DNA from: Tomocerus qinae
Taxonomy: Eukaryota; Arthropoda; Collembola; Entomobryomorpha; Tomoceridae
Assembly: GCA_020055645.1 (NCBI GenBank)
Contig: CM034546.1
Span: forward strand, 104,987,812-105,051,811
Reading direction: 5' to 3'
Length of the DNA: 64,000 nucleotides
Position 1 is the first letter of the stretch, and every line of letters starts with the position of its first letter. The position numbers and the translations under genes were made by a program. Of the stretch, positions 3,212-57,801 are shown one piece after another. The notes under the pieces were generated by a model. The model saw only the letters and a program-made list of their open reading frames with translations. It did not search any database and was not told the DNA's origin.

Positions 3212-3752
3212 ATTTTGACACTTCTAGAAGCAGTTAATCCCTTGGTGACACTTCTAGAAGCAGTAAAACCTTATGTTGACACATCTAGAAGCAATAGAAA
3301 CCTATGTTGACACTTCTAGAAACAGTAAACCCTATGTTGACACTTCTAGAAGCAGTGAAACCCTATGTTAACACTTCTAGAAGCAGTAAAACCCTATGTT
3401 GATACTTTAAATATCAATAAAACTCTATGTTGACACTTCTAGAAGCAGTAAAACCCTATTTTGACACTTTTAATAGCAATAAAACTCTATTTTGACACTT
3501 CTAGAAGTAGTAAAATAATATGTTGACACTACTAGAACCAGTAAAACAATATGTTGACACTTTTAGAAGCAGTAAAACCCTATGTTGTCACTTCTAGAAG
3601 CAGTAAAACCAAGGTGCATGTAGTGAAACCTTATGTCGACACTTCTAGAAGCAATAAAACCCTATGTTAACACTTCTAGAAGCAATAATACTATATGTTG
3701 ACACTTCCAGAAGTAGTAAAACCCTATGTTAACACTCCTAGAAGTAGTAAAA
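3212..3752. repeat. 31-bp minisatellite
   Basis: About 17 diverged tandem copies of a ~31-bp unit whose core is GACACTTCTAGAAGCAGTAA. Unit length and sequence vary, so this is an older array than the satellite to its left. A small ORF that reads through it follows the repeat and is not a gene. Confidence 0.9.
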
Positions 3753-16641: not shown

Positions 16642-19600
16642 TCATTGTAATCCAGATTTCGGCCACACAATACAAATTGCCTTGTGGTAGCTATAATATC
16701 CTTCATAACACCAAGCTGTTAAATCATCAAAGTTAGAAAAGCAAATATCAATGTGACTCCCTCCATCGGTAGTAGAGTTGGCTGTATCCAGATTACTTGT
16801 TAAATTGTATTTACGGAAAACATTTAAAATACATTCATTCTGATCTTGGATATTTATGTTTACATCGCCAAATACGACGACTTTCTCAGTTATAGTAGAT
16901 AACAAACCATCCAGCCTAGATACAAACTTTGTCTTTGAATACTTAGGAGATTTATAGGTCATAATAAGATTTACACCAGACGCATTCCATTTTACAAAAA
17001 TGCAGTGTCCTCGTTTTTCAGTAATATCCGTTATTTTCGTAAACGAATTTGGAAGCATCAAGGTTTTTGAAAAAATAAGCGCGCCTTCAGAGTTTCTTCC
17101 GTGCTCCGAATCAGTTCTATGAACACAGTGGTATGTTGGGATATTCAAGTGGTCAGTTGAAACTGTATGTGGTTCCACGAAAGCAAGAATATTACTACTC
17201 ATGGCACACTGATCTCCCGTAATGTCCAAATGATGTGCAATAAAGGACTGGATATTGTGAAAGAATATTTTTTCATATTTATCATCATAGTCTTGCAAAA
17301 ATTGCAGAGAAAACTTCACTGGTTTAGTTCTTAGTCTTTCCATTTCTAAACTCACTGGATCATTATGACGAGGCGCATTAGGGGTTCAAATTTTCCATCA
17401 ATGAATAGACCAGCTAAAGACATTGCTCTACTGCAGGCAACATAAAGCCATTCTCTTCTAAGTCTTCTTCTTGGACCAGGACGAACGTCAACAACTACAG
17501 TGGGAATAGAAGACCCTTGTGATTTTGTTATTGTCATCGCGTTTGCACCCACTAGAGGTATTTGTGTCCTTATAATTTGGAGACCACCATGATTTCGGTT
17601 ACGACTAAGATTACGAGAAATTCTTTTAATTGAAACCCATTTCGGATCAATGTTTTTACGTAATTGATAGGATTTGGTTTTTGCTCTACTGGCACTGCCA
17701 ATTAAAGGATTTCGGAAATCCATCCATACACATGTTGGGACACGAACATTCTTAGCAGTAAGACCGTATTCGATCATTTTCAAATTACCAGTTGAACCAT
17801 TAAATAGCCCATCTTGAACATCTATGTTTGTGGTGACAAAGTACTCAGCTCCTACTTGAAGTCGAGTTTCATATGGTAATCCATCCGTTTTATCCCTTTC
17901 TAGAGTTCTGGCAAATTCTTGTTGCTTTTTCTTTTGTGCCTCACTTCCATAACCTATAAATTATGTTTTCAAAATTATATAAATCGTTTCACGTCAAATC
18001 TTAAAAAATAAATAAAATTGGTTTCACTTCAATTAAATCGTTGCACGTTAAAATCTACAGATTAAAAAATGTATATATTATTGTATTTGCAGCAAGATAA
18101 AACTACATCACCTTCTATTTTGTCATATGCAGTGGATATTGTCCATTCAGTATTAAGCGATTCATAAACAACCGAGTTATACTTTTGGCATGCAGCATTA
18201 CTTTCAAATAATCTTATTGCATCTGGAGGAGGTTGGTTGTCGACACTAATTTCTCTGGACCTCAACAGGGCTATATCTTCTGGGTCCATACAACCTTCGG
18301 CCATATTATTTAGTGCTTTACAGAAGTCAAATTCCCCTTTCTGGCGCATAATTTCATCGATTTCGTACAGTTCAATTTTGTTCCATAAATAGTTACCAAC
18401 ACACAATCCCATAGGAGACTGTTTTGGTATTGTAAATACAGGAAATGCTAACACTGGGGGTAATTGACGAAAATGACCAACAACTATAATAGATCTACCT
18501 CCGAATGGTTGTTGTGGATGAAATATTTGATTTAGTCGTTGATCAATTTGATAAAACTGCCGAACGCTAACCATTGAAATCTCATCGATAATAAATAACT
18601 TTGTTCCAATTAACTTTGCCTTTAATGTGCTAGCTTCATCAGCATTAAGGTCGCACATCATCTTTTCATTGCTTGACTGGTTAGCTGGTAGATGAAATGT
18701 GCTGTGTAGTGTCATTCCAAAGACATTAAACGCTGCTTTACCAGTTGGTGCAGAAACTAAAACACAAATCTCGTTTGGATTAGTGGTAGGAAATTGGGCT
18801 GTATATCTTAAGAAACTCTGCACCAAAGCTGTAATTGCATGACTTTTTCCAACTCCAGCTCCGCCACTTAGGAAATGATAAAATGGAGTATCTGACGTCT
18901 TCAATAGATGTAATGCATTCAGAACAAATCGGCGCTGCTTTTCATTTAATGTCCTCATGATCTTCAGGTATTTCTGTTCTTCAATCATGCGTGGAGGAAG
19001 AAAATGTTGCACTCTTTTATTGGCTGTAAATAAGTCTTGTACTAAATTTTCTCCTCCCAAATCTTCCACTATTAGACCTTCGAGATCTTCATCGACTAAC
19101 GCCTTGTTATTATCATCGTTTTCATCCATCATATCATTTTCTATTTCATCCGTTATTGCACGTAGCGCATTGTCATCTACATCTCGGAGTGCAGTAAAAG
19201 GTGATGCATTTTGCAAAATGATTTTGTTCGTAAGCTGTAAGTTTTGATTGGGGTCAATCTCAAGCAAATCTTTTTCTTCATCCCGCCAAGGAACGAAAAG
19301 CATTAATCTTTCACGGTTATAATTTAACAGGTCTTCAGTTTTGCTATAATGACGAAATCTAATTATTTTCCTATTTCTTCTTTCTTTTGCAAAGCCATTT
19401 GAGTCCATGAGTTTAAAGTATTTCAATTTGCCAAATGTTTCAACATCTTGCCCTACGTCTTCATCACAATGGGCGTCCTCTATAGTACAAACATAAACAT
19501 TTACACGTGAAATTGGTAAAAATTTAAGCATTGAAAACTTTTTTTGTTTACATGCCAATTTAATATTATGAGAAAATAGACGTTAAAATATTAAAAATAT

Positions 19601-22600
19601 ATTTATTTTACCCTCTTGTCTTTCATTGTCTAAGTTAGCATTTCCTTCAGTGGCAGTCGTAGATAATCCTCTTTTTGTTTTGGAGACATCGTACATTGAA
19701 GCAAACTCAGCGAGGCATATATTTTCAAGTTCATCTGGCCGTTTAGTATAGTAATGTAAAAGTCCTTTAGCAAATATGTCTTCTGAATCGTCTTCAAGTT
19801 TATCTAAATCACATTGGGGTCTTAAAATCTTGACTCTTTCATCTGGAAGTCCCGTGTTAATGAAAACATCTTGCTTACTGCAGTAAGTATTTGGGATTCC
19901 TAGTAAAAATGCAACTGCTTCTTGGGCTGAAATTTCGGATCCATTAATTAAAATACTTGCAAACTGCTTCAATTTATTTTGTACAGTAGAGTCCTTTCTT
20001 CGGGCGTCAACTGAAGCAGCCTGCAATAGTTTTGATACACCTCCTTCAGATTTCAAAATATAGCTAACGCAATATTTAGCACAAGCGTACGTATCCACTA
20101 CAAATTGTACATCAATATTAGCACCCCATGCTTCCAAAAGTTTCCGATTGTAAGGGTTGACAAAAATGGAACTCGTATCACGCTTCAAAAATACTGTAGT
20201 CCGTTTAATGGAAGACCGGACAGCTAATATGTAATCATTGTGATTTGTATCCAAAGATCCCAAAAATGTCTCATATTCTATGTTTTCTTGAAATTTTCTG
20301 CTTAATGAATCTAATTTTTTTTGAAGAATAAGGAAAAGGTCTTTTGCTTTTATCCTTATTTCTTCATCCAAATCTTTTTCTAAAGGGTCAAGAATCATTG
20401 TTTCTTTCATCGGCGGCTTCGGAAATCCAAAACGACATTTCTTACCACCCTTGAGTCTTTTAACACAAGTATGTGAATGATTATGGATTTGATAGCCTAT
20501 TAATGTATTCATAACTCCTTCCTCACACCTCTCACAGGTAATGAATTTATCGATAAATTCAACACAAGCCTTTTAGACTCAGGATTGTCTTTGTCATAGA
20601 TTGGTGCATCCTTGATCCAGTATAAACCATGGGAATGTGGTGATCCCCTCATTTGAAATTCTATACGACTGAAGTAGTCTTGCAAAGCATAGGGGGCAAA
20701 CATCCCACATTCATGTTTAAGAATTAGACTCAATAATGCTCGATATCTATGGTCAAAATGTCTCATACAAGTGACAGGGTCACTTCTTAACAATTGTAGA
20801 ATTTGGTCAGATGACAGTTTTGTCACATCGTATTCTGTAATATCCTTATTATTGACAATTTTCATTAGCATCATTATCAATTCTTTCCACTTCGTCTCTG
20901 CTGCGGATAAAGTAATGAAAAAAGTACTTTCCTATTTGTCGCACCATAGCAAGAACCTTTTTTGATTTTTCTTTCCAATAAGATGGCGAGGATCGCAAAT
21001 TTTTGAAAACTGCATATCCATCATCTTGACGCAAAAGTTTCTCCAGAACTTCTGGATTTCTTGCAGAGGACGCTGTCAATTGCATGTCGTTATTGGTTTT
21101 TTGTCTGAGACATATTTGTATTGCGTTGCCAACTTTTTCATTAAAAGAGCGTTTGAAGGAGTACAAGATTTTGGTTGGGACACATGCTCGTCGGTCATAT
21201 CTTCGAAGTTCAGATTTAGCAATGTCGGTATACGTAATTCGGTCACTTTTATCGAAATTACGTACTTTTCCACAATATATAGTAGGAAAGGACATTTCTT
21301 CTGCTTTCGGGTCAAAATGTAGATGTTTTGGTGTATGAGCTTCGCCTGGAGCAATCTGTACTCCACGAATACCTCTTTCATTAAACACTAAAGTTTCTTC
21401 TGCCCCGATGTTTTGTACGTTTTCTGGTAGATCAAATGCGGCAAGTTCCTCTAAAATATTAAATTAAAAAAGATTTTGACGTGAAATGTGCAACAGAAAA
21501 CAATTGCAACCATATAGTTTTAAAAATTTTGACGTGCAATGCACAATAGAAATTAATTGCAACCATATAGTTCACTTGAGCTGTTTATTTATTTGTAACT
21601 TACCAGCTATTAAATCATCATCATTAGTTGGTACAGTTTGTGCCACTCCATTCTCCGCACATGTCGATTTTATTGTCGATTCTAGGGAAATTATTTACTT
21701 ATAATTCCCATCCAAAATAAAAATTAACTTCAATAATTTATATTGTTAAAGTAGTTTTACCTTGTTGTGTTGCTTCAATATTTTCGTGCGATTCCTCATC
21801 CGGTGCAATAAAATCCATTGTTTCCTCTATAGAAAGTATAATTATAATTTCACAATGTATCACAAAATATAACAATAATGCATATACATTGAGCGTATGG
21901 TTCTACCTTCAGTAAATCCTGACCAATTCTCTGACAAAACCACGTTTTCTAACTGATACAATTCTGTCGTCATAAGGTATTTGGCAGCCATGTAAACTTT
22001 ATATGGACGAATTATTTCGTGCATGTAAGGACGCTCGTAGTTCATTCTTCTCATAAATCGAACTTGAACTGTTGATGTTTCCTTAAACGACCTCGGAAGA
22101 ACTTGTGCGCATATATCCAAGTCATTTTCAACGTTGACAACATTGCCTCGAAGGGCTGATTGTTTGTCGAAACCCAGTGGTCGTATTTGCATGAAAGGAA
22201 TTCTTAGAGCCACTAATCTCTCTTCAAGGGGCGATAAATTCTATAAAGTAATAATAATAATGTAGTTATTATGCATGAATTGATTCGCGTTTAAAATATT
22301 ATAAATTAATTGTAATACAAACAACAGATTCTAAATATACCTGTAATTCCTTCGGAATAACCGGAAAATCCAACCCTTTCGAGAGGCAGAGTCTGGGAAC
22401 ACGTTTTTGATTAACGTTCCTTCTACAGGTGGAACACAATAAATGTTTTTCTTGAGGTACATGTAAAATGCGTTTAATGTCTTCATCATTAAATCCTTTC
22501 TGTTGAAGAACTTCCTTAGTGATAGACGATGTTGATTCTTTATACCAAAGGCTACCGCAACATGAGCAAATAAACGAAGGTGATTGACGAATCTTTTGTT

Positions 22601-23789
22601 TGTATTTATCCAAATTATCCTCGTACGATGATTGGAATAGTCTTCGTTTTTTCCTTTGAAGTTCCGCATTTTTTATTTGAACATCTCTTTTGTGGTCTGA
22701 ATCAGTCATCATTTTACGTTTTCTTTCATTGTCTTTTATTTTCTCTGGGGTACGGTAAATGGGATCCTGTCTTGCCAGACTCCGAGAAGCATTATTAACA
22801 GCCTGATCCTTTTCCTGTCGTTGCGGATCCTCTCTGATCTTCTGTTGAGATATGCTTTTGACTAAACGATCTCGTTTCGCTTTTTCTGGGTTCTGTCGAG
22901 CTTGACGACGTAGATCTGTGTCAACGGTTTGTTTCTCTTGTCTGCGCTGTGGGTCCTCTCTGATCTTTTGATGAGATATGTTTCTGACAACACGGTCCCG
23001 TTCCGCCTTTTCTGGGTTCTGTCTAGCTTGCCGACGTAGAGCAGTGTCAACGGTTTGCTCCTCTTGTCGCCGTTGTGGGTCCTCTCTGATGTTTTGATGA
23101 GAAATTTTTCTGACAACACGGTCCCTTTCGGCCTTTTCTGGGTTCTGTCTAGCTTTACGACGTAGAGATGTGTCAACCGTTTGTTTCTCTTGTCTGCGTT
23201 GTGGGTCCTCTCTGATCTTTTGATGAGATATATTTTTGACAACACGGTCCCGTTCCGCCTTTTCTGGGTTCTGTCTAGCTTGACGACGTAGAGCAGTGTC
23301 AACGGTTTGTTCCTCTTGTCGTCGTTGTGGGTCCTTTCTGATCTTTCGGTGAGACATTTTTTTGACAACACGATCTCGTTCCGCTTTTTCTGGGTTCTGT
23401 CTAGCTTGACGGCGATAAATAGTATTAGCAGCTTGTTGTCTTGTTGATTCCTCTATAATTTTTGCTCCAGAAGCAGCATTAGTGGCTTCATCTTCTCGTT
23501 GTTCTTCGTCCCCATTCTTTTTAGCGTTTTGAACAATCGAGTTTCTTACTGCATCCGTGGCTTCATCTTCTCGTTGTTCTTCGTCCCCATTTTTTTTAGC
23601 GTTTTGAACAATCGAGTTTCTTACTGGTATAGCTGGAGTCTGTATACTTTCAGGAGGAGAATCAACAATTTCACCGTGATCTTCGTCTGTTTTTGTGACC
23701 GACTGTGTAAGCCTAGCTTTGTATTCACGATTTGATTTTTGTTTTAATTTTTGCTTTTGAGCAGCACTTAGCCTTTTTGTTCTCGGCAT
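16642..23789 (-). pseudogene. Helentron Rep / Pif1-like helicase / endonuclease gene, frameshifted
   Basis: Seven exons join in phase: 23789-22341, 22240-21907, 21826-21761, 21681-21604, 21450-19612, 19479-18112, 17953-16642 (about 2,150 codons). Exon 1: basic N-terminus, two 25-residue repeats, five 42-residue repeats (see separate entry), then a C-x2-C / C-x2-C zinc-ribbon-like region; exon 2 continues as DUF6570-like sequence. Exon 5: Rep with RGSPHSHGLYWI (HUH region) and AKYCVSYILK (catalytic Tyr pair). Exons 6-7: helicase with GGAGVGKS, FIIDEIS, GHFRQLPP (usually GDFRQLPP), ITKSQGSS and VACSRA. The C-terminus is an endonuclease/exonuclease/phosphatase domain with VFGDVN and GSHIDICF; expected ET reads EP and the SDH-type motif reads SYH. 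Single-base frameshifts lie near 20,920, 20,573 and 17,383; in each case the family sequence continues in the next frame. Confidence 0.9.
22860..23420 (-). repeat. 126-bp coding repeat (42 residues) in the Helentron N-terminus
   Basis: Five full units and a partial sixth encode a highly charged 42-residue module with the cores RRQARQNPEKAERDRVV and KIREDPQRRQE. It is predicted to be helical. A second, 25-residue repeat (NSIVQNAKKNGDEEQRED, two copies) lies just upstream at about 23,500-23,620. Units differ mainly at a few positions, so the array expanded recently. Other Helitron-type proteins have Arg/Glu-rich N-termini; the unit count here may be particular to this copy. Confidence 0.9.
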
Positions 23790-23814
23790 GTCAGCTGTGA
23801 TAACTAAGATACAT

Positions 23815-29442: not shown

Positions 29443-30435
29443 TTTGTTAAGGGCCGTGTTCCTTTATTAATTCGAAATTCGAAATTTTTAAATATTTCAA
29501 AATTCAAATAAAAATATGCTTCTAACGGTAGCCGAAACCCATAGCCCTACTAACCGAAAAACTAACTGGAGATAACCACACAATCGCAGTATTCGACGCT
29601 GGGCAGTATATTGCAATACTTCAAAATAACAAAATTGAAAGTTTCCAAGGAAGTTCCTAATTTTGAATGGTATGTAGCTATTTAACACAGGGAGCCAATA
29701 GCAACAGCAATCTGCACTGCAAAATCTTCATCCAATGTGCACAAGAATTTGTTCATGCCATGAACTGGCTACATTTGGATGTAGAGGCACATTTGCATTT
29801 CCACACATTATTTCGAGTATTGCACTGCTATCTCTTGGGTGGGACATCAGTAACCATGGGATCGAATTACTACTGACTGTAATCAAGCAATGACACTATG
29901 AAAATTATGACACCATCAGCGTTGGCATAGAGAAAAAGCTCAATGCTCTAGCTCATGTCAAGTTGATATCAGTCCATTGCTTCAATGTCGGATATTCTAT
30001 GACTTGCACATCCGGTCAAGTATGAGGCAGTTTACATTTCAACCTTTTTTATGAAACTCTCTTTGCTATTTTTGATATAACTTCCAGAGTTTTACTCCGA
30101 TTTTCTAATGATGTACATTTTCGGAAAGGCAAACGCATTGGCTAGGATTTAATTTGGGAAAATGTTCGATTATTGCCTCAGTTTTTATACATGTCACACT
30201 TTAATGATGACATCTGGATAGAAATTCGCATAAAATTTTGAACCATTGCTACTGCTAAATAATCAAAAAAATCGAAAATTTTCCCAAATTAAATCCTAGC
30301 CAATGTTTTTACCTTTCCGTAAATGTACTTCATTAGAAAATCGGAGTAAAACTCTGGAAGTTATATCAAGAATGGCAAAAAATTTTAACATGTATTTTGA
30401 TAGTCACCAGAGATTCCCAAATCGTATACACAGTC
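29443..30435. repeat. Dispersed repeat R, intact-looking copy
   Basis: Starts AAGGGCCGTGTTCCTTTATT, a motif repeated 990 bp later at 30,436 where the next copy begins. Internal landmarks also present in the split copy are GCCGAAACCCATAGCCCTAC (29,532), GGGAGCCAATAGCAAC (29,689) and AAAGCTCAATGCTCTAGCTC (29,935). It contains a smaller palindrome at 30,076-30,365. It has no credible ORF, and its class is unknown. Confidence 0.7.
30076..30365. repeat. Palindromic insertion within repeat R
   Basis: Arms of about 88 bp (30,076-30,164 and 30,278-30,365) are near-perfect inverted copies, sharing CTTCCAGAGTTTTACTCCGA and AAATCCTAGCCAATG. About 113 bp of loop separate them. One diverged arm occurs at 45,130-45,225. 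Confidence 0.85.
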
Positions 30436-30890
30436 ACCTTAAGGGCCGTGTTCCTTTATTAATTCGAAATTCGAAAGTTTGAAATATTTCGAAATTCAAA
30501 CAAAAACATGCTTCTAATCAAGGTTTATTAAAACCATAGCAGCAGCGCCACAATAGGTTATTTCATGCTCAAAATCACCAGTTTTCTAGACACACAGATA
30601 TTTCAAGCCCTAATCTATCACATGAAGTTTTAATAGCATTTTAGTAGGATGTTTTCTCCAGCCATCCTTCTAGTAGGTCAAAGGAAATAAAAATAGACTA
30701 ATGTACATGCTTTCAATTGAGTTTGGCTTTAAATAATGTTCATTTTGACTACTCTTTTATATATTGTTTCGTTCAAACTGAACATTAACAATAAGTTGTT
30801 CCAAGTAAATTCTAAATCATGCCATCTTGTGCCGTTTACAATTGCTTAAATTCTTAACAGCAATTGAGAAATTCCAGGAGAACTGCGTAA

Positions 30891-31668
30891 TTTAGATCTG
30901 TGACGATGGATAAGTGGAAGAATATTGAGTTGGAGAAAATGAAGGTAGGTGCAGTTAATTTTATGTTAAACTATGTCCAGGAATATTTCTAAGCCTCATT
31001 GTTAATCCATATTCCATATTATAATATCACATTTAGGTTGGAGGAAATGGAAAGCAAAAGAACTTTTGGAATCATATTCAGATTGGGACGATAATTCGTC
31101 TCTGCAGCAGAAATATAATACCAATGCAGCTGTGTTATACCGCGAAAAAGTAAGTCCCATTAATTACCCTCATTATAAACATAAAAGTCTATGCACATTA
31201 TTTCCCTAAGTACTTGCAATTCTTGTACCGACTCACTTTTGGACTGTACTGACTTCAGGGAAATTTAATGATTAATTATGGATTTTAAAAATAGTTTCAG
31301 ATTTTTACCATACCATTTCAAGGTAGAACATAGAGTGAATCACAAGCGAAGAAAAGTGTGGCTAGTCTACCTGCTAATTGATCAACGAGGTCGTCAAACT
31401 CTACTAACAATAACTCGTCTAGCCAAGGGTTTACTAAGAGTACTTCGACTCCAGCATTCTCCAAGGGCAATAATAGTACTGGTTCGTACTGTTCGTCATC
31501 TACTGCTTCTTATCAAAATAATGATTATTCGTCTGGGTCCGAATATTCAAGTTCGTACCAAAATGGACCTACTGGTGGAATTGGTGGAAGTCTTACTTAT
31601 GCAGAAAAGAAAAAATTGGAAAATTCTACTCGATCTGTAGATCAGTTTCCAGCTGATAAAAATTATTA
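30891..31668 (+). pseudogene. Captured ArfGAP1 gene fragment inside the P-element
   Basis: Exon at 30,891-30,944 encodes FRSVTMDKWKNIELEKMK. It is followed by a GT-AG intron (30,945-31,036) and an exon (31,037-31,149) that after one single-base shift reads KELLESYSDWDDNSSLQQKY then NTNAAVLYREK, ending at a GTAAGT donor. This is the second half of the ArfGAP zinc-finger domain of ArfGAP1 (GTPase activation of Arf1 at the Golgi). A further stretch to 31,668 is Ser/Asn-rich and ends LENSTRSVDQFPADKNY, similar in position to the ENxTR region of ArfGAP1; it contains one stop. The zinc-binding cysteines of the domain are missing, so no active GAP can be made. Retention of the intron means capture was at the DNA level. 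Confidence 0.85.
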
Positions 31669-31938
31669 ATAAATATTATATTAATTAATGTTATAATTAT
31701 TAATAAAAAATTAACCCAAAAAGTAAAATCTTACGAGGAGTTGGATGGATGTAATACAAATGGTCAAGTGCAGATATTTACTAAACTTAGTCATTTCAGA
31801 ATGTTTATTAGATGAAATGCAGGGTTCTACAAGAGCATTAATGTTACTGGATATGCAACTAACTATATTTGATGATCTCTAAAATTTAAAGTTACAAAGT
31901 TACTTAAAAGTAAAACATCATTCACAATCATAAACTTC

Positions 31939-34900
31939 CTATTCATTAGATCTGGGCAAGCGCTCAAAGTACTTAGTTTGACTTCGTCTTTGCTTGATCA
32001 TCTTATTGACAAATTGAATCCTGATAAATGTCCTTGTTTTTACGAAAACCTTTATAATATTCTCCGGTATTTCAGGAAATTTCAGCACCAAAGCCTCAAC
32101 TAGCAATCTTATTACTCCATCACATCTATTGATATTCCACTTGTCCCCGGTTTCGTGAAATTTTATGAAGTAAGAGTTCAATCTACGACATAAGTTTAAA
32201 AGATTGTATGATGGCGTGACTAAATTACCATGTGATAAGGTTTGAGTCCAACTTTTGGGATTTCTCATTCTCTGGGATAATGTCAATTCCAAGTCGGGAT
32301 ACTTAGCCTTTAGTTTTTTTGCGACATAACCACACAAATACTCCTCCCCTCCAAATTCTCAATTTTCTTTAACAGTCATTGACTCGTTAATAGTTGTCCA
32401 ATTATCTTCAGAAATTTCTTCGGGGTTAGATTCATAGTTTATAACATCCGATACAATTCTACTTTCAATAGCTTCTTTGGCCCATTTATCTTCACATGAC
32501 TCAGTAACTCGACTTTCCATCAAATACTCCAATATTTCATTTCGGAATGATGAATCTACCCAGCTGTCCTCTGAAGATACCGAGCAACTTTTTGGAGACT
32601 TCAGGCACTTTGACAAGACAAGGGCTTTTAATCTGTACATGCACTCAATAGGGGAAGGGTTTTGATTATAAACACCCATGCCACGTATCGAACTGAAAAT
32701 GTTTTCAATGTAGTCTTGATTTAATCTGGACGTTAGTAAATATTTAGTCTTCTTTCCCTTAGTGTTCAGTTGATTAAATAATCCTTTCAAAGATGCTATT
32801 GCAATTAATAAACCTTTTTGAAAGGGCAAGGAAGCTTTCTTTGCTTTTCCATCAGCTTTTAACGGCCGCATTGTTCGAATTTCATTTGCAAAGTTGTCTA
32901 GTATTCTATTTTGATCATTAAGGAACAGGCCATACGCTGCTTTAGTAGGTTTCTTTTCGTTTGGAATTCGTGAGTTCATCACGTCACATGCATCATTAAA
33001 TAAACGAATGAACTCCGCAGCGTGTCTCTTTTCTGGAAAATGTTTTTCCATGGACATTCCTGTTGTCTCAGAAAGTAGTTCGAAAGCCCATGAAACTTTC
33101 ATTCGATCTTTACCTTTCACTTCTAAACATAGTTTCGGATTTTCCCATTTCCCACCTCATTTTGATAGCCAGTTGGGAAAAGTGGGAAAAGTTGGAAATA
33201 CGGGAAAAGTGGGAAATTTCTGGGAAATGAAAAAAAGTCACGTGAAATGATATGATTCGCTGCGGTAACCTAGGGCGGCTGTTCTTTTATGCTACAAATT
33301 ACCAACCAAAAACAAAAGTAAATAATTTTGTAATTCCACAATCCAGATGACAAGGACTGCCAATTCCATACTCTAAATTTTACTTTGGTTTATTTTCTGC
33401 TTATTACGATCACGTAAATTATGACAAAGTGAATAAAAATTTGGAATACTCGGCAGTTGCATTAGTATTGACATGTGAAGTGAGTAATACAAGTATTTTG
33501 ATTTAATAATCACATTTTGTAATTTGGGCTATGAATTTATACAGCGGAATAACGTCACTGCATCTGAAGCACAGTGCGCAGTGTTTTTATTTTAATATAC
33601 ATTAATCTGTTGCATTCATTGCATAAGGCAACACAGGTAACGATATCCCGCTGATTAAAAGCCCTAAATTATTGTAATTATTATTACGTTTACCTACGTT
33701 AAAGAAAAAAACTTCAATGCAAAATTTTTTATTACATCTACAAACAACTCTTAGTAACTTACGAAATGTAAACGAGCAAGGATGACTTGAAGAGCACTAA
33801 GGAAGTCTCGTCTCATATGAGACTGCTAGGGAGCAGTATTTATACCTTCTGTGTACTAATGTTTCATTTCCCAGTCATTTTTTTCATTTCCCATTTTCCC
33901 ACCCACTAAGCCATTTTGATTCCCACTTTTCCCACTGGGAAAATGGGAAGATTCCACTTTTTGATTTCCCACCCGAAACCTTGCTTCTAAATGATGCTGA
34001 TTTAATTTGAATGTAGTATTTAGTTCAGATGAATTTGCATCGATTACATCTTGAAAATCTTGTTTGGTGACTGTCGCACCGTTACTCAGTATAAAGCCAT
34101 GGTCGACCACATTATTCCTTGTAAGTTTGACTAAATGAGAAAAGTCAGGCGAGACCCAGATGTTTTCACCGGTTACTGGGTTTAAAAAGTATGATTTCTC
34201 CTCAGTAATTCCTCCCAGCGCATTGAATAGGCCTCTATTTGGAGTTGCTAAATCACTAGTCATTGCTAACCAAAAGTTACAATTTTATCGCAAAAAATAA
34301 TTATAAACAAAAGATAATGTTCTAAAATACGAATCTCGGATTTTACCTACGACACTAAGACCAGCTTCTTGTACAGCAGTAATTATGAGAAAGAAAAGTT
34401 CTTTTGTAAGTTTCACATCAAATCCATAAAAAACTGGCTGTTTCCACGGCGGATGTAGTCCCCTTACAGCAACCAGAAGAAGCTTTTTATAAGGTCCCAA
34501 AATCTTATCATGTTTCGAGTCATATGAAACGCAAAAATCTATGGACATTTCGTCGTATCCAATAACACATTCCTTTTCCCAATCTGAAGCATCCTCAAAG
34601 TTTTCTTGTAACATGTTTAACACTGGAGCAATCAATCCAGGTTTAAAATCAATATCAGACATCGACCTAAGATTCATAATTCGGAATAATTGTAGTATTG
34701 CCAAGAACGAATCTTTTTTAGGAAATCAATACACAAAATGATTTTATTACCTCAAAATAGTACTTCGACTAGGGAGAGGAATGTGCCAGTCGTCTCTAAT
34801 TATATCATAAGCCTTCGCAGATACTACTCTTAATTGAATAGCTTTAGATATTTCCTCGGAAGTCCAAACCGTTTTTGTATTATTGTTAAGCATCATTTTT

Positions 34901-35408
34901 ATTTGCAGGGGGCTGAACACTTTTTGCATAGCTTCCTCGTAAGATTTTACTTTTTGGGTCAATTTTTGATTCTCATTTTCCAATACTTTGATCCGCCTTA
35001 TCATTGAAAATATTCTGTTTGTAAGCGAAAAATCTTTGTGTTTAGCTGAAATGTAATGTAAAGTTAAACATTAGTGACAAATATCTCTATTTACTACATA
35101 CATATTTACTAGGCATTTATCTATATTGGAATTCACTATACCGGGAAGCCTAATAGAAGGAATTGCAGTGGACAGTAGTGTTTTCTTGTTAGCTCGATTG
35201 TTAAAATCTTGAGCCGAAAAATGAATTGAACAAATTCTTGCGTTTTGAATTGAATTTCCTGCCTTCAAAGACAATTTGCATTTTTCCATCCATTTCTTAT
35301 GCATGACTACATTTTTTGGGAATCTGTGTGGAAAGAGATATCAGTTCTCCTGGAATTTCTCAATTGCTGGTAAGAAGTTAAGCAATTGTAAACGGCACAA
35401 GATGGCAT
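31939..35408 (-). pseudogene. P-element THAP-domain transposase, interrupted
   Basis: Parts in order on the minus strand: THAP zinc finger (from ATG at 35,408, starting MPSCAVYNC; then KKWMEKC and ARICSIHF supply the remaining C2CH residues, with a small frame break near 35,325); coiled coil (IRRIKVLENENQKLTQ) and KVFSPLQIKMML at 34,747-35,004; catalytic RNase-H-like region with IGYDEMSID and VRGLHPPWKQPVFYGFD at 34,349-34,708; VVAMTSDLATPNRGLFN and NVVDHGFILSNG at 33,984-34,265; C-terminal LLTSRLNQDYIENIFSSIRG at 32,360-33,120; and GYVAKKLK at 31,939-32,337, after an in-frame stop near 32,357. Several GT-AG introns are visible (for example about 34,268-34,344). The hAT MITE at 33,128-33,983 splits one exon. 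It would cut and join P-element ends; this copy is inactive. Confidence 0.88.
33128..33983. mobile_element. hAT-type MITE, copy 1, in the P transposase
   Basis: An 856-bp element with ends CATAGTTTCGG and CCGAAACCTTG and subterminal runs of TTTCCCA/TGGGAAA. It is flanked by the perfect 8-bp repeat CTTCTAAA (33,120-33,127 and 33,984-33,991). Taking it out restores the transposase reading (HHLE joined to VKGKDRMKV). A second copy is at 40,064-40,939 in the opposite orientation. No ORF is present. Confidence 0.9.
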
Positions 35409-36340
35409 GATTTTGGATTTACTTGGAACAACTTATTGTTAATGTTCAGTTTGAACGAAACAATATAAAAGAGTAGCCAAAATGAACATTATTTAAAGCC
35501 AAACTCAATTGAACGCATGTACATTAGTCTATTTCTATTTCCTTTGACCTACTAGAAGGATGGCTGGAGAAAACATCCTACTAAATGCTATTAAAACTTC
35601 ATGTGATAGATTAGGGCTTGAAATATCTGTGTGTCTAGAAAACTGGTGATTTTGAGCATGAAATACCTTGCTTCTAATGTTATCCGAAACCCAAAGCCCT
35701 ACCAACCGACAAGCTAACTGTATACGGAGATATGCAAACACTCGACAGTAGTGCAATACTAACAAAATAAAATAACAAAATGTTTACACCCAAGCTACTG
35801 TCCAAATAATCTATTCAGACGCATAAAACAGACTTCTTTTGTTCTCATCCGGCCACGGGATTGGTTAACATTTTTCAAAATTCGACATTTTATTGGTTAT
35901 TTCCATGGCGAAAATTCTATAGGTGACAACTATTTTTTGGAAAGGGATGCATTTCACAATTCATTGTTGCATTGAGCAGACAATGAAGTATTTTGTAAAC
36001 TAAATCACACTTTGATTTTTATTATATTATTGTTATCAAAGTTCATTTAACAGTTGATTACTATTTACCAATGAGTTATTTCTATGAGTTATTTCTATGA
36101 TTCTGTAACTTATTTATCACTAATTCACTAAAACTAAGATGACTTCTTATCAAGTATTATATTATCATGGTTTAGAAAAGTTCATCTTTTCTGTATACGA
36201 ATGCTATTTTTGTTTGCTGTCTATTTGTATTTTTTTGTTTGGTAATTATAGTAGTACGAGTAAGGTTACCCGTCCTACGGACGGGGTTAATAACAGGGCG
36301 CTTGAATGTTCAAAAAAAAATTTTATTCAAAATTTCAAAA

Positions 36341-37044: not shown

Positions 37045-38790
37045 CATAAGAACGATTCCGTAATTGTACCTTGCAAAGCTATAATCTTTGTGTGCATCCT
37101 GTGTATAATATAATATTCATATAGTGTATTGTATTTTGTAGTAAATTGCAAAGTGTTGCTAAAATTCCCCCATCTGGGGAATCTATAAAATATTCGAAGT
37201 ACTGTTGATAACTAATTGCCTTAGTACCAGCATGCCGGAGTTGCACCTCAATACGCTCTCTGATTGGCTGAAATTTTTTGAAACTTAGCCTTCTGATTGG
37301 CTATTGCTATAAAGAATATTTTATAGATTCCCCAAATGGGGACATCTTAGGAAAATTTTGCAACTATTACAAAATACGATACACAAAATGCACCCAAAGG
37401 CTTTTCCAGGTGGAAAGTAAAACGGAATCATATTATTATGAATCATTTGGTCACACTAGTAAGTAAACATTCGTTTTGCAATACGACTTTAAACAATGAT
37501 TGCACATTCGGTATTCTTATACTTTGCGAGCTAATTAAGTTTTCTTTTTTCTGGAAATTAAGCAAAGTTTTCTCAAAGCTCCGTCATCACCAGCATAAAA
37601 AAGGGCGCACCTTACCAGAAAATGCTGAGAATGTTTAAACATCGTTTATTCTTAGTTAATTTATATTGAAAAATACCTGTCGTTCGTTTGTTCTATCAGT
37701 ATTTTACTTTTATTAATTTGCAGAATGGTACAATATTAGGTCTCAATGCGTTATTGTATGTTATTATTGTAACATTAATGGTTAAAGTTAATTCTGCTAA
37801 TTCGGTATAAATATTGCCTTTATTTCAGTGTAATTGGTCTAGCTATCTGCTATAATAAATGTAGAACAGTACTACCATAATTATGTGTGCATTTTGGGTC
37901 TTTTGTGAATCATAGACAGTTAGTATATTTGTAGAAAAGTCATTAAATAATTTCCATTTCATAGTTTTAATTACTTTGTACATATCACAGAAGTAAAATT
38001 CCTCCTTGTGTTGTTTAGTTAGTAAATGATTCATAATAATAATAATATGACTCGGTAGGTACTCCGTTGTAGCTCGCAAAGTAAAAGAATACCGAATGTG
38101 CACTCATTGTTTAAAGTCGTATTGCAAAACGAATGCTTACTTACTAGTTGATTAATCATACGTAAATAAGAAGAGATCTTATTTATGTTGATACTTCCAG
38201 CAACCTCGGTGACCACGTGATACATGTATTAAGAGCCAAGTGGATGGAGGACTCCATCCACTTGGCTCTTAATACATGTATCACGTGGTCACTTTTTTCA
38301 AAATTTTCTCCGCGAGGTTGCTGGAAGTATCAACTACTTACTTACTAGTGTGAGCAAATGATTCATAATAATAATATGACTCCGTTTGTCGTTGTTTAAA
38401 TCGTATTGGAAAACGAATGTTTATTTATTAGTGTGACCAAATGATTCATAATAATATGATTCCGTTGTACTTTCCACCTGGTAAAGCCTTTGAGTGCATT
38501 CTGTGTATCGTATTTTGTAATAGTTGCAAAATTTTCCTAAGATGTCCCCATTTGGGGAATCTATAAAATATTCGTTACAGCAATAGCCAATCAGAAGGCT
38601 GGATTTCAAAAAATTTCAGCCAATCAGAGAGCGTATTGAGGTGCAACTCCGGCATGCTGGTACTAAGGCAATTAGTTATCAACAGTACTACAAAATACAA
38701 TACATGAATATAATACACAGAATGCACACAAAAAATTAATGTTGCAAGGTACAACAACGGAATCATATTCATTCTACTTTTAATAATTTT
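37045..38790. repeat. Large imperfect palindrome (fold-back MITE, copy 1)
   Basis: The left arm (about 37,045-37,530) and right arm (about 38,050-38,790) are inverted copies sharing GGAATCTATAAAATATTC, CATGCCGGAGTTGCACCTCA and CATTCGTTTTGCAATACGA. The right arm is longer because a hairpin MITE (38,150-38,340) and a partial internal duplication (38,341-38,460) interrupt it. The central ~500 bp include GGGCGCACCTTACCAGAAAA, related to 5175-5240. Confidence 0.75.
38150..38340. mobile_element. Hairpin MITE, intact-looking copy
   Basis: Inverted arms are centred on the GA at about 38,251 (TGGATGGAG against CTCCATCCA). They extend without mismatch through AGCCAAGTGGATGG, ATACATGTATTAAGAG and GTGACCACGTG. 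They then resume as CAGCAACCTCG against CGAGGTTGCTG after about 20 bases missing from the left arm. An outer hairpin CGTAAATAAG/CTTATTT is also present. It is flanked by direct CTTACTTACTAG. The family copy at 9455-9712 carries the same blocks. Confidence 0.85.
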
Positions 38791-38804
38791 AAAACCGATT
38801 CAAA

Positions 38805-39070
38805 CATTAACAAATGACTCCGTTGTTGTACCTTGCAAAGTTATAATCTTTGTGTGCATCCTGTGTATAATAATATTCATATAGTGTATTGTATTTTGTA
38901 GTAAATTGCAAAGTGTTGCTAAAATTCCCCCATCTGGGGAATCTATAAAATATTCGAAGTACTACAAAATACAATACATGAATATAATACACAGAATGCA
39001 CACAAAAAATTAATGTTGCAAGGTACAACAACGGAATCATATTCATTCTACTTTTAATAATTTTAAAACC
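38805..39070. repeat. Fold-back MITE, copy 2 (short)
   Basis: Inverted copies of the same ends as in the neighbouring palindromes: GTTGTTGTACCTTGCAAAG at 38,821 against a complement ending near 39,035. Little more than the arms is left. A third copy begins only a few bases to the right. Confidence 0.75.
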
Positions 39071-39363
39071 GATTCAAACATTCATAAATGACTCCGTTGT
39101 TGTACCTTGCCAAGCTATAATCTTTGTCTGCATCCTGTGTATAATATTCATATGGTGTATTGTATTTTGTAGTAAATTGCAAAGTGTTGCTAAAATTCCC
39201 CCATCTGGGGAATCTATAAAATATTCGATGCAGCAATAGTTAATCAGCAGACTGGATTTCAAAAAATTACGCCCAATCAGAATGCATATCCAAGTGCAAA
39301 TCCGCAATGGGCAATACCATTCCAGCTGGGACTAACAGTAGTACAAAATACAATACATTAATA

Positions 39364-45420: not shown

Positions 45421-45527
45421 TTAAAATTCATGTAATAGATTGGTACTTGAAATATCTGTGTCTAGAAAACCGGTGATTTTGAGCATGAAATAACCTAATG
45501 TTTACTGCTATGGTTTTATAAACCTTG
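45421..45527. mobile_element. Isolated P-element end
   Basis: Matches the outer left arm of the P-element at 30,519 in complement: GGTGATTTTGAGCATGAAAT, then CTATGGTTTTATAAACCTTG at the terminus. No transposase is nearby. It is either a solo end left by deletion or part of a second, truncated copy. Confidence 0.75.
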
Positions 45528-52293: not shown

Positions 52294-55200
52294 TTATCTC
52301 TTATTGTTGTGGTCAACATAGACTCGAACGACTTCTCCCGAGTATTTCCTTTGAGATGGCATAAAGTAAAAGTCGGGGTTGTGAGTTGCGGACGTTCCTC
52401 CGCCGACACCACTGCTTCCGTTATGGCGCATGGATTGCGATTGGTGTGCATGAGTAGATTGGTGAGAAGAATGGTTTTGTGGACGAGGGAGTGACATGTT
52501 GGGAGGTCCATGCTGACTATAACTATTACCATGGCCATTGGAATTATGACTTAGACTGTGGTGACCATTAGTATGGGGATGGCCATTGCCGTGGCTGTTG
52601 CCGTGACTGTTGCCGTGACCGTGACCATTTCCATTTGGGTGATGTTGAGGCGCTGCTGTCAATGGCATTGCGTTATGTCCCAAGTGCTTTTCATCGTAGG
52701 CGTCGTAACCATAATTCGTTTCTGAATAATCTCTCCATTGCATTCCTGATCCACTGGAAGGAGAACCCTGAGAATACAAACACGAATTATTGTCATCCTT
52801 CACATTTCATATCTTTAAAAAATACATGCAACTGCAATTTACTATGTACAAGGTAAACATTCATTATAATGGTAAAAATAATAGTTTCTCAGGTAAGCGA
52901 AAATGCGCTGTGCTACTTATTGCGTGAGCACCTCAAGCTAAAGGGCCTATAAACTTACCTACGTTTTGATAAATAGAGTATTTAAGTGCACGAAATAATA
53001 CATCTATATGGTACTGTATAGATATGTGGATTGACTATATGAACTAAACAGGAGTAATGTGCATGAGATTAATTACAGCTTTAATTATAGTAATGGCCTT
53101 AAATGCAATGCAAAAAAGAACGCAGAAACGAAGAGATTAAAAAGAAAAGAAAGATAAAAGGATAAAAAAAGTTCAGATCATTAATCATTACTATAAACGT
53201 TAGTGAATACTGGAAGGTGCTGATTGTCGCCAACCTTGACAGGATAATATGTATATGTGATATTAATAGAAGTTTTAAGAAGATTTTGTCAATGAAGATA
53301 GGAGAAGTGAAGACTGTCAAAGAAGATCATGATCATATTGCAGGTTTAGCCCCTCCCATTTCATTCCCGTTAGGAACAACCTTTTAAAAGAAATTCATTC
53401 ATTCTACAACAGCTTGTAACTACATACAGTTTCCATAAGATTTGGCACTTACAGAGGCATTGCTATACAATCTTAATTATTCATACAGTACAACTTTTCA
53501 CATTTTGCTTTTTTTCTGTCATCGCATGATAATAATTAGTTAACGTGGGAAAAGGAATGATAATATTACCTTGTGGGAGGAAGTTTTACCGGAGATTTTG
53601 TAAATGGTCAAGCCAGCTTGAAGAAGGGCTAAAAGAATAAGAGCGGCAACGCAGCCGAGAACAATCCATAATCTTTGACCTCCAAATGCAGATGTTGTCG
53701 CTATTACATTAGAATCTTCATCTTCCGCAGCACGGAACTCTGGAGAACTTAATTCCAAGTATTGAGGATCCAATTGTAAAGCTCCAACGCGGCCATTTGC
53801 AATTGTTTCTTTAAGAGCACGTTCTACTCGATTTTTATCAGCTAGCTCTGAATTGGGTTGTACCATCAGTTCTAACTTGGCCAAGGCTCCTTCTCCATCC
53901 CTATATCATTACCGAAAAACAATAGTTTTATTTTCGATCCTATCTTCCAAAATATATGCATATTAAATCACAAAAATCTATTTTATCGTACCTGGTAATA
54001 TCTGTAAGTCCTAATCGGTTGAATCCCTGAATGTTCTTAAGACCAGAGCTTAGGTCAGTTTCGATACGATTTCCTAATAAGTTGAAATCTTCAGAACCCT
54101 TCTTCGGTGCTTTCCAATTGTCTCCTAAACCACCGGTTAGCTTAATATCAAATTGATAACGAATCTCTTGAGGCTTAACCACTTTCACTGGTCGACATTT
54201 ACGGGGAATGCAAATCTTTTCAGGAGAAGCAATTGGAGTTTGGTCATGCTTTCTAATCTTCTTGGATACTGCATTGTAAGTTCCACCTTCCACAGGGAAC
54301 AGGAAGAATCGACATTCATCCAAGGAAACATCTTTCAAGTTATCATTTGTATTCACTTTCCGTAAGAATGACAGTTGAACAATGCCGTCTCGATATTTGC
54401 CAGTCATATTAGAAATATCCTATGTTTATAAGTAAATTACTTAACATTCATTTTACATTTTACACAATTTAATACAAATCCTGAACAGAATAACTTTCAA
54501 GTACCTGATATTGATCCAAAATAGGTGCTGTGTATGAGGTCATGAAAGTGTCCATGATAAAAAACTGTCCTGCTGAATTTACCCATCCAAGAATAGCATC
54601 AGAATTTCTCATATCAGGACTGTCGCTGAAGCCAATGCCCGTCCACTTATCAGTTTTTCTGGTTTCAATTGTAAATCTAATAGAATCCAAGCTAGGAATG
54701 TATCTCCAAGTGGCATTATAACTGCAAGGTTTTGAACTGTCGGCATTAGAGCAACCCGGAGGATGAGCCCAGTTATTTTCGCAGTCACCTTCTGTTGTCT
54801 TTTTGCTGCCAGTTGCTGGGAAAATGAAATATTATGAATATTTATTTAAGATAATTATTCAGGTTACATTTCCCCATAAAATATTATCTGGTAATACCTT
54901 GTTGATTTAAGAAGTCAATTCGGGTAATACCACGCTGAGCACCGTGTCCATGATATTTAATCTCATCGGGAGCATAAAAATTAGGAACGGATGGAGTCTC
55001 CTTTTCAATTCCAGAATGGGGTTTGTGCACGTATTCACCTGACTCTTGACCTCTGGCCCAAATTACATGCATTTCTCCGTCAATGGTATGATCAGGACCA
55101 TCTGTCGAACGGATTTTTCTGCGGAAAATAAGGACAGTTTGGTTGTCTTTCTCCCATCCGGCTGCTGATGTAATATCTTCTTTTCCTCCCCAGAATGTGT

Positions 55201-57801
55201 CCAGTCTTGGTGTAGATCTATCCCTTGTGTAGTAATCCCTAATTCTGGAATAAATCCCTCGTGCACCGCCCATTACCAAATCGATGCAGTCCATAGCATG
55301 AAAATCTCCTTTTGGTGCCCACTGAAAATGTTAATTATCAAATTATTTGTGGGTACTAAAGGCTTGTAGAACTAACTAATTACGTAGCGTTCATATCTAA
55401 ATATCACGGACATTTAGCTTTAATTAGACGATAATTTTACCTCAGATGGTTTCAATTCCTGATTTGATGGATGAGGTGAGCTTCCACTTGCGCCTGGTTC
55501 TGCCTCAGCTTCAGGTTCACTTTCAGGATGTGGCTCGGCTTCTGACTCAGGTTCAGGTTCACTAGCTGTAGATTCCGGTTCAGATTCAGGCTCAGATTTT
55601 GGTTCAGACTCAGGTTCTGACTCGGGTTCTGTTATTAGAACAATACTTAATAATAATGTACAAAAATTAAGATGAGGTTAAGTGTATTTTAACACTAACC
55701 AGGCTCTGCCTTGGAATCCTCAGGTTCGGGTGATCTCTGCCTTCTTGAGCTTCGACTTACAACGATAGAAGATGTTTCTACCTTCACTTCTTCGTTTCCT
55801 TCAGGCGCTTTGGAAGATCTAAGTTTGGCTCTCAATTTACTAGCGCTTGAACTTGTAGTTGACACGGTTTTAACGGTGGTTTCCTTAACTTCAGGTCTTG
55901 TTGTAACTTCCGGCTCTGGCTCAGACTCTACAATAGTAGTATTAGTACAATTATAAATTGCATCGATCATGCACATATTCAATTTGTTGAAAAAATCCTT
56001 CAAAATACCTGCATGTGGTTCAGCATGGGTTTCCGGTTCAGCATGACCATCTTCATGTTTTGGTTCGTACTTATGTTCATGTTTAGATGTTGGCTCTGCG
56101 GAAACTTCTGGCTCCGAAGAAGCACTTTCAGCACTGGGTTCTGTTTCCGCCGCTGGTTCCGGCTCAGCCTTTCCAGTTTCATGCTTATGCTTGTGGTCTG
56201 AAGCTGAAGATTCTGGCTCTGGTTCCGATTCAGCTTTAGGTTCCGATTCGGCAACGGGTTCACTAAATGAATTCAAACAATATAGGTCATTCAAAATTTC
56301 AAATAAAGATGGTACTGTATATTAGTTGATAGTGGTATTACTTCATAAATGTCTGTACACAATTTTATATTTAACTTACGAAGGAGCAACTTGCAACTTT
56401 GCATTTTTGCCTTGACGTTCCGTGGTTGAATTCTGAATAAATGGCCATCTCTTACAGGTTTTGTCAAAACCAGCCGGTCTCCATCCAATAGCTCCATAAG
56501 AAGTACCGTCAATTACAAGGATAAACTCGATTTCCTTATTTTCTTCCTTTTTAGCAGGAATAATCTATGAATTTTAAGAGTAGTGAACATCAGTTATCTC
56601 CTTTACAATAATAAAATGTTGTTTCATTTGAGTATTTTTTAGATAAGGCAATTTAGTAGTCGTACGTTGTAGTAAAGGGTCATTCGATCCGATAAAACTT
56701 GTTTGGTGTGCCGAGAAGTATCAAGGGGCTGATTAGAATCGGGCATTTTAACCTTATTCCTCTTACGACATTTTTCACCATGAAATCCTGGAGCGCAAAA
56801 GCATTGTTTACGAGGTAGAGCCGTTCCACCGAGAGCAATACATTTTCCATTGCTGCCACCACACTCGGAGTCCGTTTCACACTCATCTTCATACTGACAT
56901 CTTGCTCCCCAAAATCCTATTTACAACAGAGAGAAAATAAATTAGGATGATATATAAACACAAAGTTAACTTGCTAACATGTGGGCATTACAGAAGAATA
57001 CTAATACAAGTCCCTTTTCCTGTTACGTTCATTGTATCCTTTCTTTACTATACATTAGAATGTAAATATATATACTTGTAACAAGACACAAAATTAAAGC
57101 ACAGTTCGTTTTCCTTCCCTGCTTGACACGTACCAACACTAAACGCTAATGGTCCATAATTTAGCACGGACGAAGCATTGTTCCAATCCACGGTCAATTT
57201 AATTACACATCCGAATTATTCATGCTACTCTGGTCGCTTACAAGCCCTAGTTATTTATTTGACGTGAGTTTAAAGGTTCTTAAACATTTAACCTGTATCA
57301 TGTAATGTTTAGATAATACCTACTCCATATAGTGCCAACCATATCTACAGTTTCTACCTAAGCTTTGAGATTTCATGATCATTACGCACCAGTCACGGGA
57401 TGGACACGGAAGATACAAAACCTCTTAAACTATTATTTCATGTATCCATACACATTTTACATATGCACGTACGCGCATATAATTTGGATAATACCTACCA
57501 AAGAAAGGTACCATTAATAACCATTTAGATAGGGAACTCTCTTAAGCACAAATCACAAATGTAAGTATATGTATCTAAAACGTGTACATTTAACACACCT
57601 TTATTACAGACGCAACGTCCAACTACAGGGCGGCCGTGCCCACTGCAAGTTTCTTTATATTTCCGGGGTTCCACGATGTCCACATCGGCACATGACCAAA
57701 ATCGGTAATTATTTGCCCATTCAGACGCCTGTCGGAGCAAACGAATAGTGCAATCGTCACAGGTGAAATTTGTCGGTAGTTTTATTTCATGCCACTGCGC
57801 T
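52294..57801 (-). CDS. EGF/DOMON/SEA single-pass membrane glycoprotein, 5' part missing
   Basis: Eleven exons join in phase: 57801-57599, 56916-56666, 56564-56380, 56262-56009, 55927-55700, 55628-55441, 55321-54898, 54815-54505, 54419-53992, 53900-53570, 52767-52294 (about 1,091 codons). Order: Cys-rich segment (LPTNFTCDDCTIRLLRQ, FWSCADVDIV), reminiscent of the end of LPMO-like domains; two EGF-like modules (CSGHGRPVVGRCVC; CETDSECGG); first half of a DOMON domain (EFILVIDGTSYGAIGWRP); a Glu/Pro/Ser/Ala-rich stretch of about 220 residues; second half (MDCIDLVMGGARG, DYYTRDRSTPR); a second DOMON-like domain (TGIGFSDSPDMRNSDAILGW); a SEA-like domain; a transmembrane helix (LWIVLGCVAALILLALLQAG); and a His/Gly/Asn-rich cytoplasmic tail ending GEVVRVYVDHNNKR. 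DOMON domains bind heme or sugar; the function of this protein is unknown to me. Earlier exons with start codon and signal peptide are not seen. Confidence 0.85.

Follow-up and report, generated by a model that had tools for sequence, protein, structure and literature searches.

How does a piece of a host gene come to lie inside a transposon, and what has become of it there? This question is raised by the 64,000-nt stretch of Tomocerus qinae DNA analysed here (the whole of which we call the window), in which a sequence resembling ArfGAP1 follows directly on the left arm of a P-element. The first-pass annotation, made from the letters alone, had described this arrangement and had suggested that an intron-containing fragment of the host gene was captured at the DNA level. 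The ArfGAP1-like sequence behind the left arm was confirmed: positions 30886-31663 align with the ArfGAP1 gene of the same genome at 86% identity, gaps counted, with an E-value of 2.3e-271. The coordinates of all features of the element are given in Table 1.

Table 1. Features of the P-element copy in the window and of its ArfGAP1 cargo.
Feature	Position	Strand	Basis or remark
8-bp target-site duplication CTTCTAAT, left	30511-30518		Comparison with sibling copies
Left terminal inverted repeat (TIR), 367 nt, begins CAAGGTTTATTAAAACC	30519-30885	+	Repeat search and sibling comparison
Copy of transposase start codon in left TIR (MPSCAVYNCL...)	30819-30821	+	Stop at codon 13 in window copy
Captured ArfGAP1 segment as aligned	30886-31663	+	Clear homology to ~31655
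ArfGAP1 intron 2 tail with acceptor TTTAG	30886-30895	+	2-nt microhomology TG with arm at 30884-30885
ArfGAP1 exon 3	30896-30944	+	
ArfGAP1 intron 3, GT...AG	30945-31036	+	
ArfGAP1 exon 4	31037-31149	+	1-nt deletion relative to parent
ArfGAP1 intron 4, GT...AG	31150-31300	+	
ArfGAP1 exon 5	31301-31655	+	Two stops in parent's frame; parent donor GT reads AT
38-nt filler	31702-31739	+	Inverted copy (36/38) of transposase gene 34934-34971
Fragmented P transposase gene, THAP start at 35408	31939-35408	-	Broken by THAP frameshift and insertion 33157-33980
824-bp insertion in transposase	33157-33980		97% identical copy within cargo of E5
Right TIR	35342-35670	-	Repeat search and siblings; ~35 nt deleted near outer end relative to siblings
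8-bp target-site duplication CTTCTAAT, right	35671-35678		Comparison with sibling copies

The sequence from 30519 to 35670 is a single P-element. The repeat search detected inner arms at 30559-30885 and 35342-35665, and comparison with sibling copies showed that the element extends 40 nt further out than the left inner arm and 5 nt further than the right. The inner 327 nt of the left arm have at least 37 matches in the genome. The transposase of the window copy is damaged, with the THAP frame shifted and the gene split by the 824-bp insertion. Two of its pieces were scanned and one of them scored above the RNase H and GTP-binding cut-offs; the last piece reached 17.1 bits against the P C-terminal model, below the cut-off of 22.6. 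The domain names used for this gene are taken from sibling copies. Sibling E2 has four open transposase exon frames, and its reading contains a THAP domain (3.1e-18) and a P-type HTH (2.1e-5), while E9 contributes the TNP RNase H and GTP-binding insertion domains and has the P transposase 6p5a as its best relative among solved structures (3.5e-42). An 8-bp target-site duplication is a hallmark of the P superfamily. Judged by this duplication, by its terminal inverted repeats and by the THAP, P-type HTH and RNase H domains with GTP-binding insertion in siblings E2 and E9, the window element is a P-superfamily DNA transposon.

Several other features were observed in and around the element. The insertion at 33157-33980 has inverted ends of the type GGGAAAT and is perhaps a separate short transposon. 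A 79-nt direct repeat (94%) occurs at 30439-30517 and 29447-29525; as the target-site duplication sits at the end of one of its copies, the P-element seems to have inserted into a larger repeat. A lone P TIR piece, corresponding to the first 75 nt of the inner arm, is found at 45421-45492 (C1:105033232-105033303, C1 being the contig of the window). The P-type RNase H domain has at least 157 matches in the genome, which is thus rich in P-superfamily elements. Furthermore, the window contains minus-strand ORFs at 16642-23813, one with a PIF1-type helicase domain (3.1e-25), which we take to be perhaps a Helitron; nested direct and inverted repeats at 37051-39309, with 300-nt arms at 95% and a 102-nt family present three times; and DOMON-domain ORFs on the minus strand at 53940-55330, one above the cut-off and one below.

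A host ArfGAP1 piece of 770-778 bp forms the cargo; it has the left arm on one side and the 3' end of the transposase on the other. It starts inside intron 2, at ~30884-30886, and comprises the last ~10 nt of that intron followed by exon 3, intron 3, exon 4, intron 4 and exon 5. The GT-AG structure noted earlier is present, but there are two complete introns and not one. The earlier protein reading FRSVTMDKWKNIELEKMK also has to be amended, as its 'FR' is the acceptor TTTAG read as codons and exon 3 only starts at 30896. Likewise the segment, previously delimited as 30891-31668, loses its ArfGAP1 homology at ~31655, where the GT donor of the parent reads AT. The loss of 1 nt close to the beginning of exon 4 and the two stops in exon 5 break the reading frame. 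Without exons 1 and 2 and with its frame shifted, the piece has neither the complete ArfGap domain nor the open frame by which an ArfGAP1 gene would be recognised. The window cargo is a pseudogene and cannot encode an ArfGAP1 protein. We rejected a live chimeric gene in the window copy, whose spliced reading is interrupted at codons 13 and 24 by stops, and also a 122-aa ORF (the long shifted frame of exon 5) as coding sequence, which is not in the frame of ArfGAP1 and is kept only partly in E2.

The search for an intact gene, proposed as a check at the outset, found one elsewhere in the genome. The parent lies on the minus strand of another contig (C2:18325518-18327400), has 7 exons coding for 358 aa and contains an ArfGap domain (1.5e-35); its best solved match is Arf GTPase-activating protein 1 (3dwd, 1.5e-62). 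The other ArfGAP1 exons are on this contig and not around the window copy, where they would lie if the window held a complete gene. Parent and cargo share their intron sequence. For the window cargo we counted 467 identical bases among 502 aligned in the exons (93%; exon 3 45/48, exon 4 108/113, exon 5 314/341) and 203 among 223 in the introns (91%; intron 3 85/92, intron 4 118/131), and for the cargo of E2 444/477 in the exons and 223/248 in the introns, gaps being uncounted in all these figures and the last base of exon 3 tallied as intron. As the match to the parent is almost as close in the introns as in the exons, the cargo was copied from DNA and not from mRNA, and the argument from intron retention made in the first-pass annotation holds. 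The similar divergence of exons and introns is what DNA-level capture and subsequent decay would be expected to produce. Two further observations concern the surroundings and relatives of the parent. A repeat near the gene (L003, ~3353-3615) is also found in the right arm of E6 (89%) and in the left arm and flank of E12 (72-84%); apparently this is a different repeat family, without connection to the capture. Two ArfGap-domain matches of equal score lie 67 kb apart at C3:33437637 and C3:33504913, perhaps a recent duplication of another ArfGAP gene.

In order to follow the cargo through the 334-Mb genome we used an 815-nt query, of which the last 37 nt are P sequence; the resulting counts are lower bounds. 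Among the 22 matches listed, one is the window copy (E1), one is the parent and 20 fall into 11 further elements with the same arms, so that the other proposed check, a count of P copies sharing the cargo, also came out in favour of capture. The length of cargo retained varies among the copies: nearly all of it is present in E2 (C2:45.26 Mb), 324 nt in E3, parts in E4, E5, E6, E11 and E12, 78 nt of exon 5 each in E9 and E10, ~22 nt in E8 and ~6 nt in E7, which is too short to count alone. The listed match ranges of E7-E10 are overlong, as the last 37 nt of the query and the 8 nt before them are not ArfGAP1. Both ends were read in 12 elements (E1, E2, E4, E6-E13 and E15); E3, E5, E14 and E16 were left out because an end or both were missing or unread, E5 having been read in its middle and right end only. 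Perfect 8-bp duplications, all different, flank 11 of the 12, and E12 has no matching duplication. At least 22 nt of ArfGAP1 are present in 8 of these 11 elements (E1, E2, E4, E6, E8, E9, E10 and E11) and at least 78 nt in 7.

The left breakpoint is the same in all copies that retain that junction (E1, E2, E3, E4, E6, E11 and E12). The intron tail is kept in E1, E3 and one arm of E12, the other E12 arm differs, and a 9-nt deletion at the breakpoint is common to E2, E4, E6 and E11. The common breakpoint speaks for one capture followed by spread. Host sequence of a known parent thus lies inside the TIRs of a transposon, with its introns kept and in multiple copies with distinct duplications, which is what defines a Pack-TIR. 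We therefore consider it very probable that the window element is one copy of a P-superfamily transposon turned multicopy Pack-TIR. The order of long-TIR formation and capture would follow from the shared breakpoint, as the search turned up no copy that both lacks cargo and has its 3' end intact; E14 (84% transposase) was considered as a cargo-free ancestor and rejected as rearranged. A 1.85-kb part of E15 matches E14 at 68-86% and contains no gene known to us by eye.

In the foldback-like copies E4, E6, E11 and E12 exon 3 sequence adjoins both arms. The inverted match between the ends of E4 covers the host exon (473 nt at 85%), and that of E11 extends over 1406 nt at 91% (in 1400 nt compared) and includes a 146-bp satellite. 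As these inverted matches cover exon 3, the host exon is now part of the TIR. Inverted arrays of the ~146-bp satellite fill the P copies E11, E4, E6 and E5.

The same family has also captured part of a second host gene. A piece of ~1.3-1.4 kb from an AAA-ATPase gene is present in E8, E9, E10 and E15, and E13 contains a remnant of 98 nt; on one side of the piece is an arm, or in E8 the remnant of the ArfGAP1 cargo, and on the other a 5' end of the element. All five elements have perfect 8-bp duplications. The reading of E10 contains the AAA domain (8.7e-28) and the AAA lid, with VCP- and Msp1-type ATPases among the best of the 60 structures covered out of 273. For E9 the 5' reading of the AAA-ATPase piece had no match to AAA among the domain models. 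The donor is found at C1:99368391-99376960 and is 92-96% identical; more distant paralogues (74-77%) lie at 99.39 Mb. The donor is interrupted by ~7.2 kb (C1:99368968-99376171) with the short repeated flank ACTAAG at both sides; judging from the edges, this may be an LTR-type insertion that postdates the capture. The distance between the donor and the right end of E5 is 1.3 kb, and a random point would be as near with a chance of ~1.3e-4, given 16 elements.

There are several possible routes by which ArfGAP1 could have entered the element. At the left junction the arm ends with ...GAACTG and the ArfGAP1 intron tail starts with TGCGTAATTTAG, with an overlap of 2 nt, and the cargo begins at the inner edge of the long left arm, which itself repeats the element's 5' end in inverted form. 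On the right side the 38-nt filler is what template switching would leave; a motif search of the stretches examined found it in six copies (E1, E2, E7, E8, E9 and E10). The right junction is different in the satellite-type copies E4 and E5. From these scars we infer gap repair, which the first-pass annotation had offered as an example, to be the favoured mechanism: ArfGAP1 was probably captured once, while a break in a P copy was being repaired. The repair strand would have copied the 5' end of the element inverted as far as THAP codon 22, giving rise to the long left TIR, and would then have switched at the 2-nt match into ArfGAP1 on another contig. A second switch would have led through the 38-nt inverted transposase piece before the strand returned to the 3' end of the element. 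Later deletions would have trimmed the cargo, which may now be a passenger. No source was found for the AT-rich sequence at 31656-31701, between the end of the cargo and the filler, which counts against this chain of events.

A template switch at a replication fork would leave the same marks as gap repair. According to the fork stalling and template switching model (FoSTeST) of Tan et al. (2021), the chimera would have been made in replication and mobilised afterwards, and a break made by the transposase would be unneeded. The element is multicopy, the window on C1 is far from the parent on C2, and the short match on the left and the filler on the right are much like those of the multicopy Pack-TIRs in the portions of that paper used here (PMC8277862). 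The same portions state the gap-filling model for P-elements as proven in Drosophila, and nothing in our data separates the two; on balance we regard an origin by FoSTeST as rather unlikely. End bypass or composite transposition, in which a P copy in or near ArfGAP1 left with flanking DNA, finds some parallel in the AAA-ATPase capture, which is partly of this look: the gene piece of E10 is situated beyond an inner arm from which only about the outer 30 nt are missing, and the donor is close to the right end of E5. The ArfGAP1 cargo, however, is internal, is flush with the inner edge of the arm and has the filler on its opposite side, and no P part was matched in the 4.0 kb read at the parent locus, so that this route is highly improbable for ArfGAP1. 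The degenerate state of the window cargo would also agree with a P-element inserted into a decayed ArfGAP1 duplicate without any mobile capture. Yet several copies with different duplications hold the same cargo with the same left breakpoint, which refutes this explanation and leaves it practically no chance. Our preferred reading is a single capture by gap repair.

A separate question is whether the captured exons are expressed. The TIR includes the ATG of the transposase with its first 22 codons (MPSCAVYNCLTSYQQLRNSRRT), which are thus present at both element ends, and a second, inward-facing start precedes the captured exons. Both arms of E4 and the left arms of E6 and E11 give the reading MPSC...RRTASVTMDKWKDIELEKMK or one very close to it, which stays in frame through all of exon 3 as far as a GT donor that has been preserved. 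For E9 and E10 the reading is MPSC...RRTGGSLTYAEKKKLENSTRSVDQLPADNNY, which reaches the end of exon 5 in the frame of ArfGAP1 itself. These in-frame joins raise the possibility of a functional THAP-ArfGAP1 chimera expressed from the second start codon. The join is broken, however, in the window copy, in E2 and E3, in both arms of E12 and in the right arms of E6 (which has no ATG) and E11, and exon 4 is frameshifted in E1, E2, E3 and E4, though not in E12. Exons and introns are alike in their identity to the parent, as under no constraint, and the 39-aa join scored an E-value of 0.021 against the ArfGap model, below the cut-off. Moreover, each such event has a 1 in 3 chance of joining in frame, a single deletion is common to E9 and E10, and the pattern was recognised post hoc. 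On the sequences at hand a functional chimera would seem improbable. The wider idea, that the family might act as a natural gene-fusion device in which satellite-type copies with the host exon in both TIRs could yield a chimeric protein joining the THAP start to ArfGAP1 (possibly to other genes), is similarly doubtful, if slightly less so.

P-elements are among the best-studied cut-and-paste transposons of animals, and their gap repair is a classic. Gene capture by P-elements has hitherto been known mainly from laboratory experiments, and the titles and abstract openings of the open-licence PMC papers found in our searches yielded no description of a natural multicopy P-element with a piece of a host gene. 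The earlier remark that capture is unusual for P-elements agrees with the portions of Tan et al. 2021 used here (PMC8277862), where it is cited under artificial transposase activation. The family described here records two captures from two host genes, with template-switch scars and with host exon sequence in some TIRs; the mechanism of capture can thus be read from natural copies and is testable in Drosophila.

In those portions of PMC8277862, Tan et al. report 370 Pack-TIRs with a median of 224 bp in 100 animal genomes, of which 323 are hAT (208) or Tc/mariner (115), the other 47 being outside this comparison; none was present in the insect reference genomes scanned, and one family, Ssk-FB4, occurred in fly populations. 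The elements described here share with animal Pack-TIRs the non-TE sequence between the TIRs, the short breakpoint matches, the multiple copies with distinct duplications and the distant parent. They differ in belonging to the P superfamily, in the length of the cargo (~775 bp), in its three exons and two introns and in its position beside a transposase gene. With gap-repair capture by the Drosophila P-element, as presented in the same portions (PMC8277862), they share the type of element and the internal filler made by template switching, but capture there followed artificial activation, whereas here it is natural, has diverged from the parent and has spread. Ssk-FB4 of Drosophila melanogaster likewise amplified a host gene by means of an element with long TIRs; FB4 is, however, placed near MULEs in these portions of PMC8277862, and it carries an almost complete gene, for which there is support from peptides, and not a fragment as here. 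Galileo of Drosophila, as described in the parts of PMC2775673 drawn on, resembles our family in its membership of the P superfamily, in its long TIRs of up to 1.2 kb and in its foldback-like copies. Its duplications are of 7 bp with the consensus GTAGTAC, whereas the duplications here are of 8 bp and varied, so that the elements fall outside Galileo by this family criterion. Our family, whose TIRs contain the transposase start codon, is further set apart from Galileo (PMC2775673) by the host exon sequence that some of its copies have in their TIRs.
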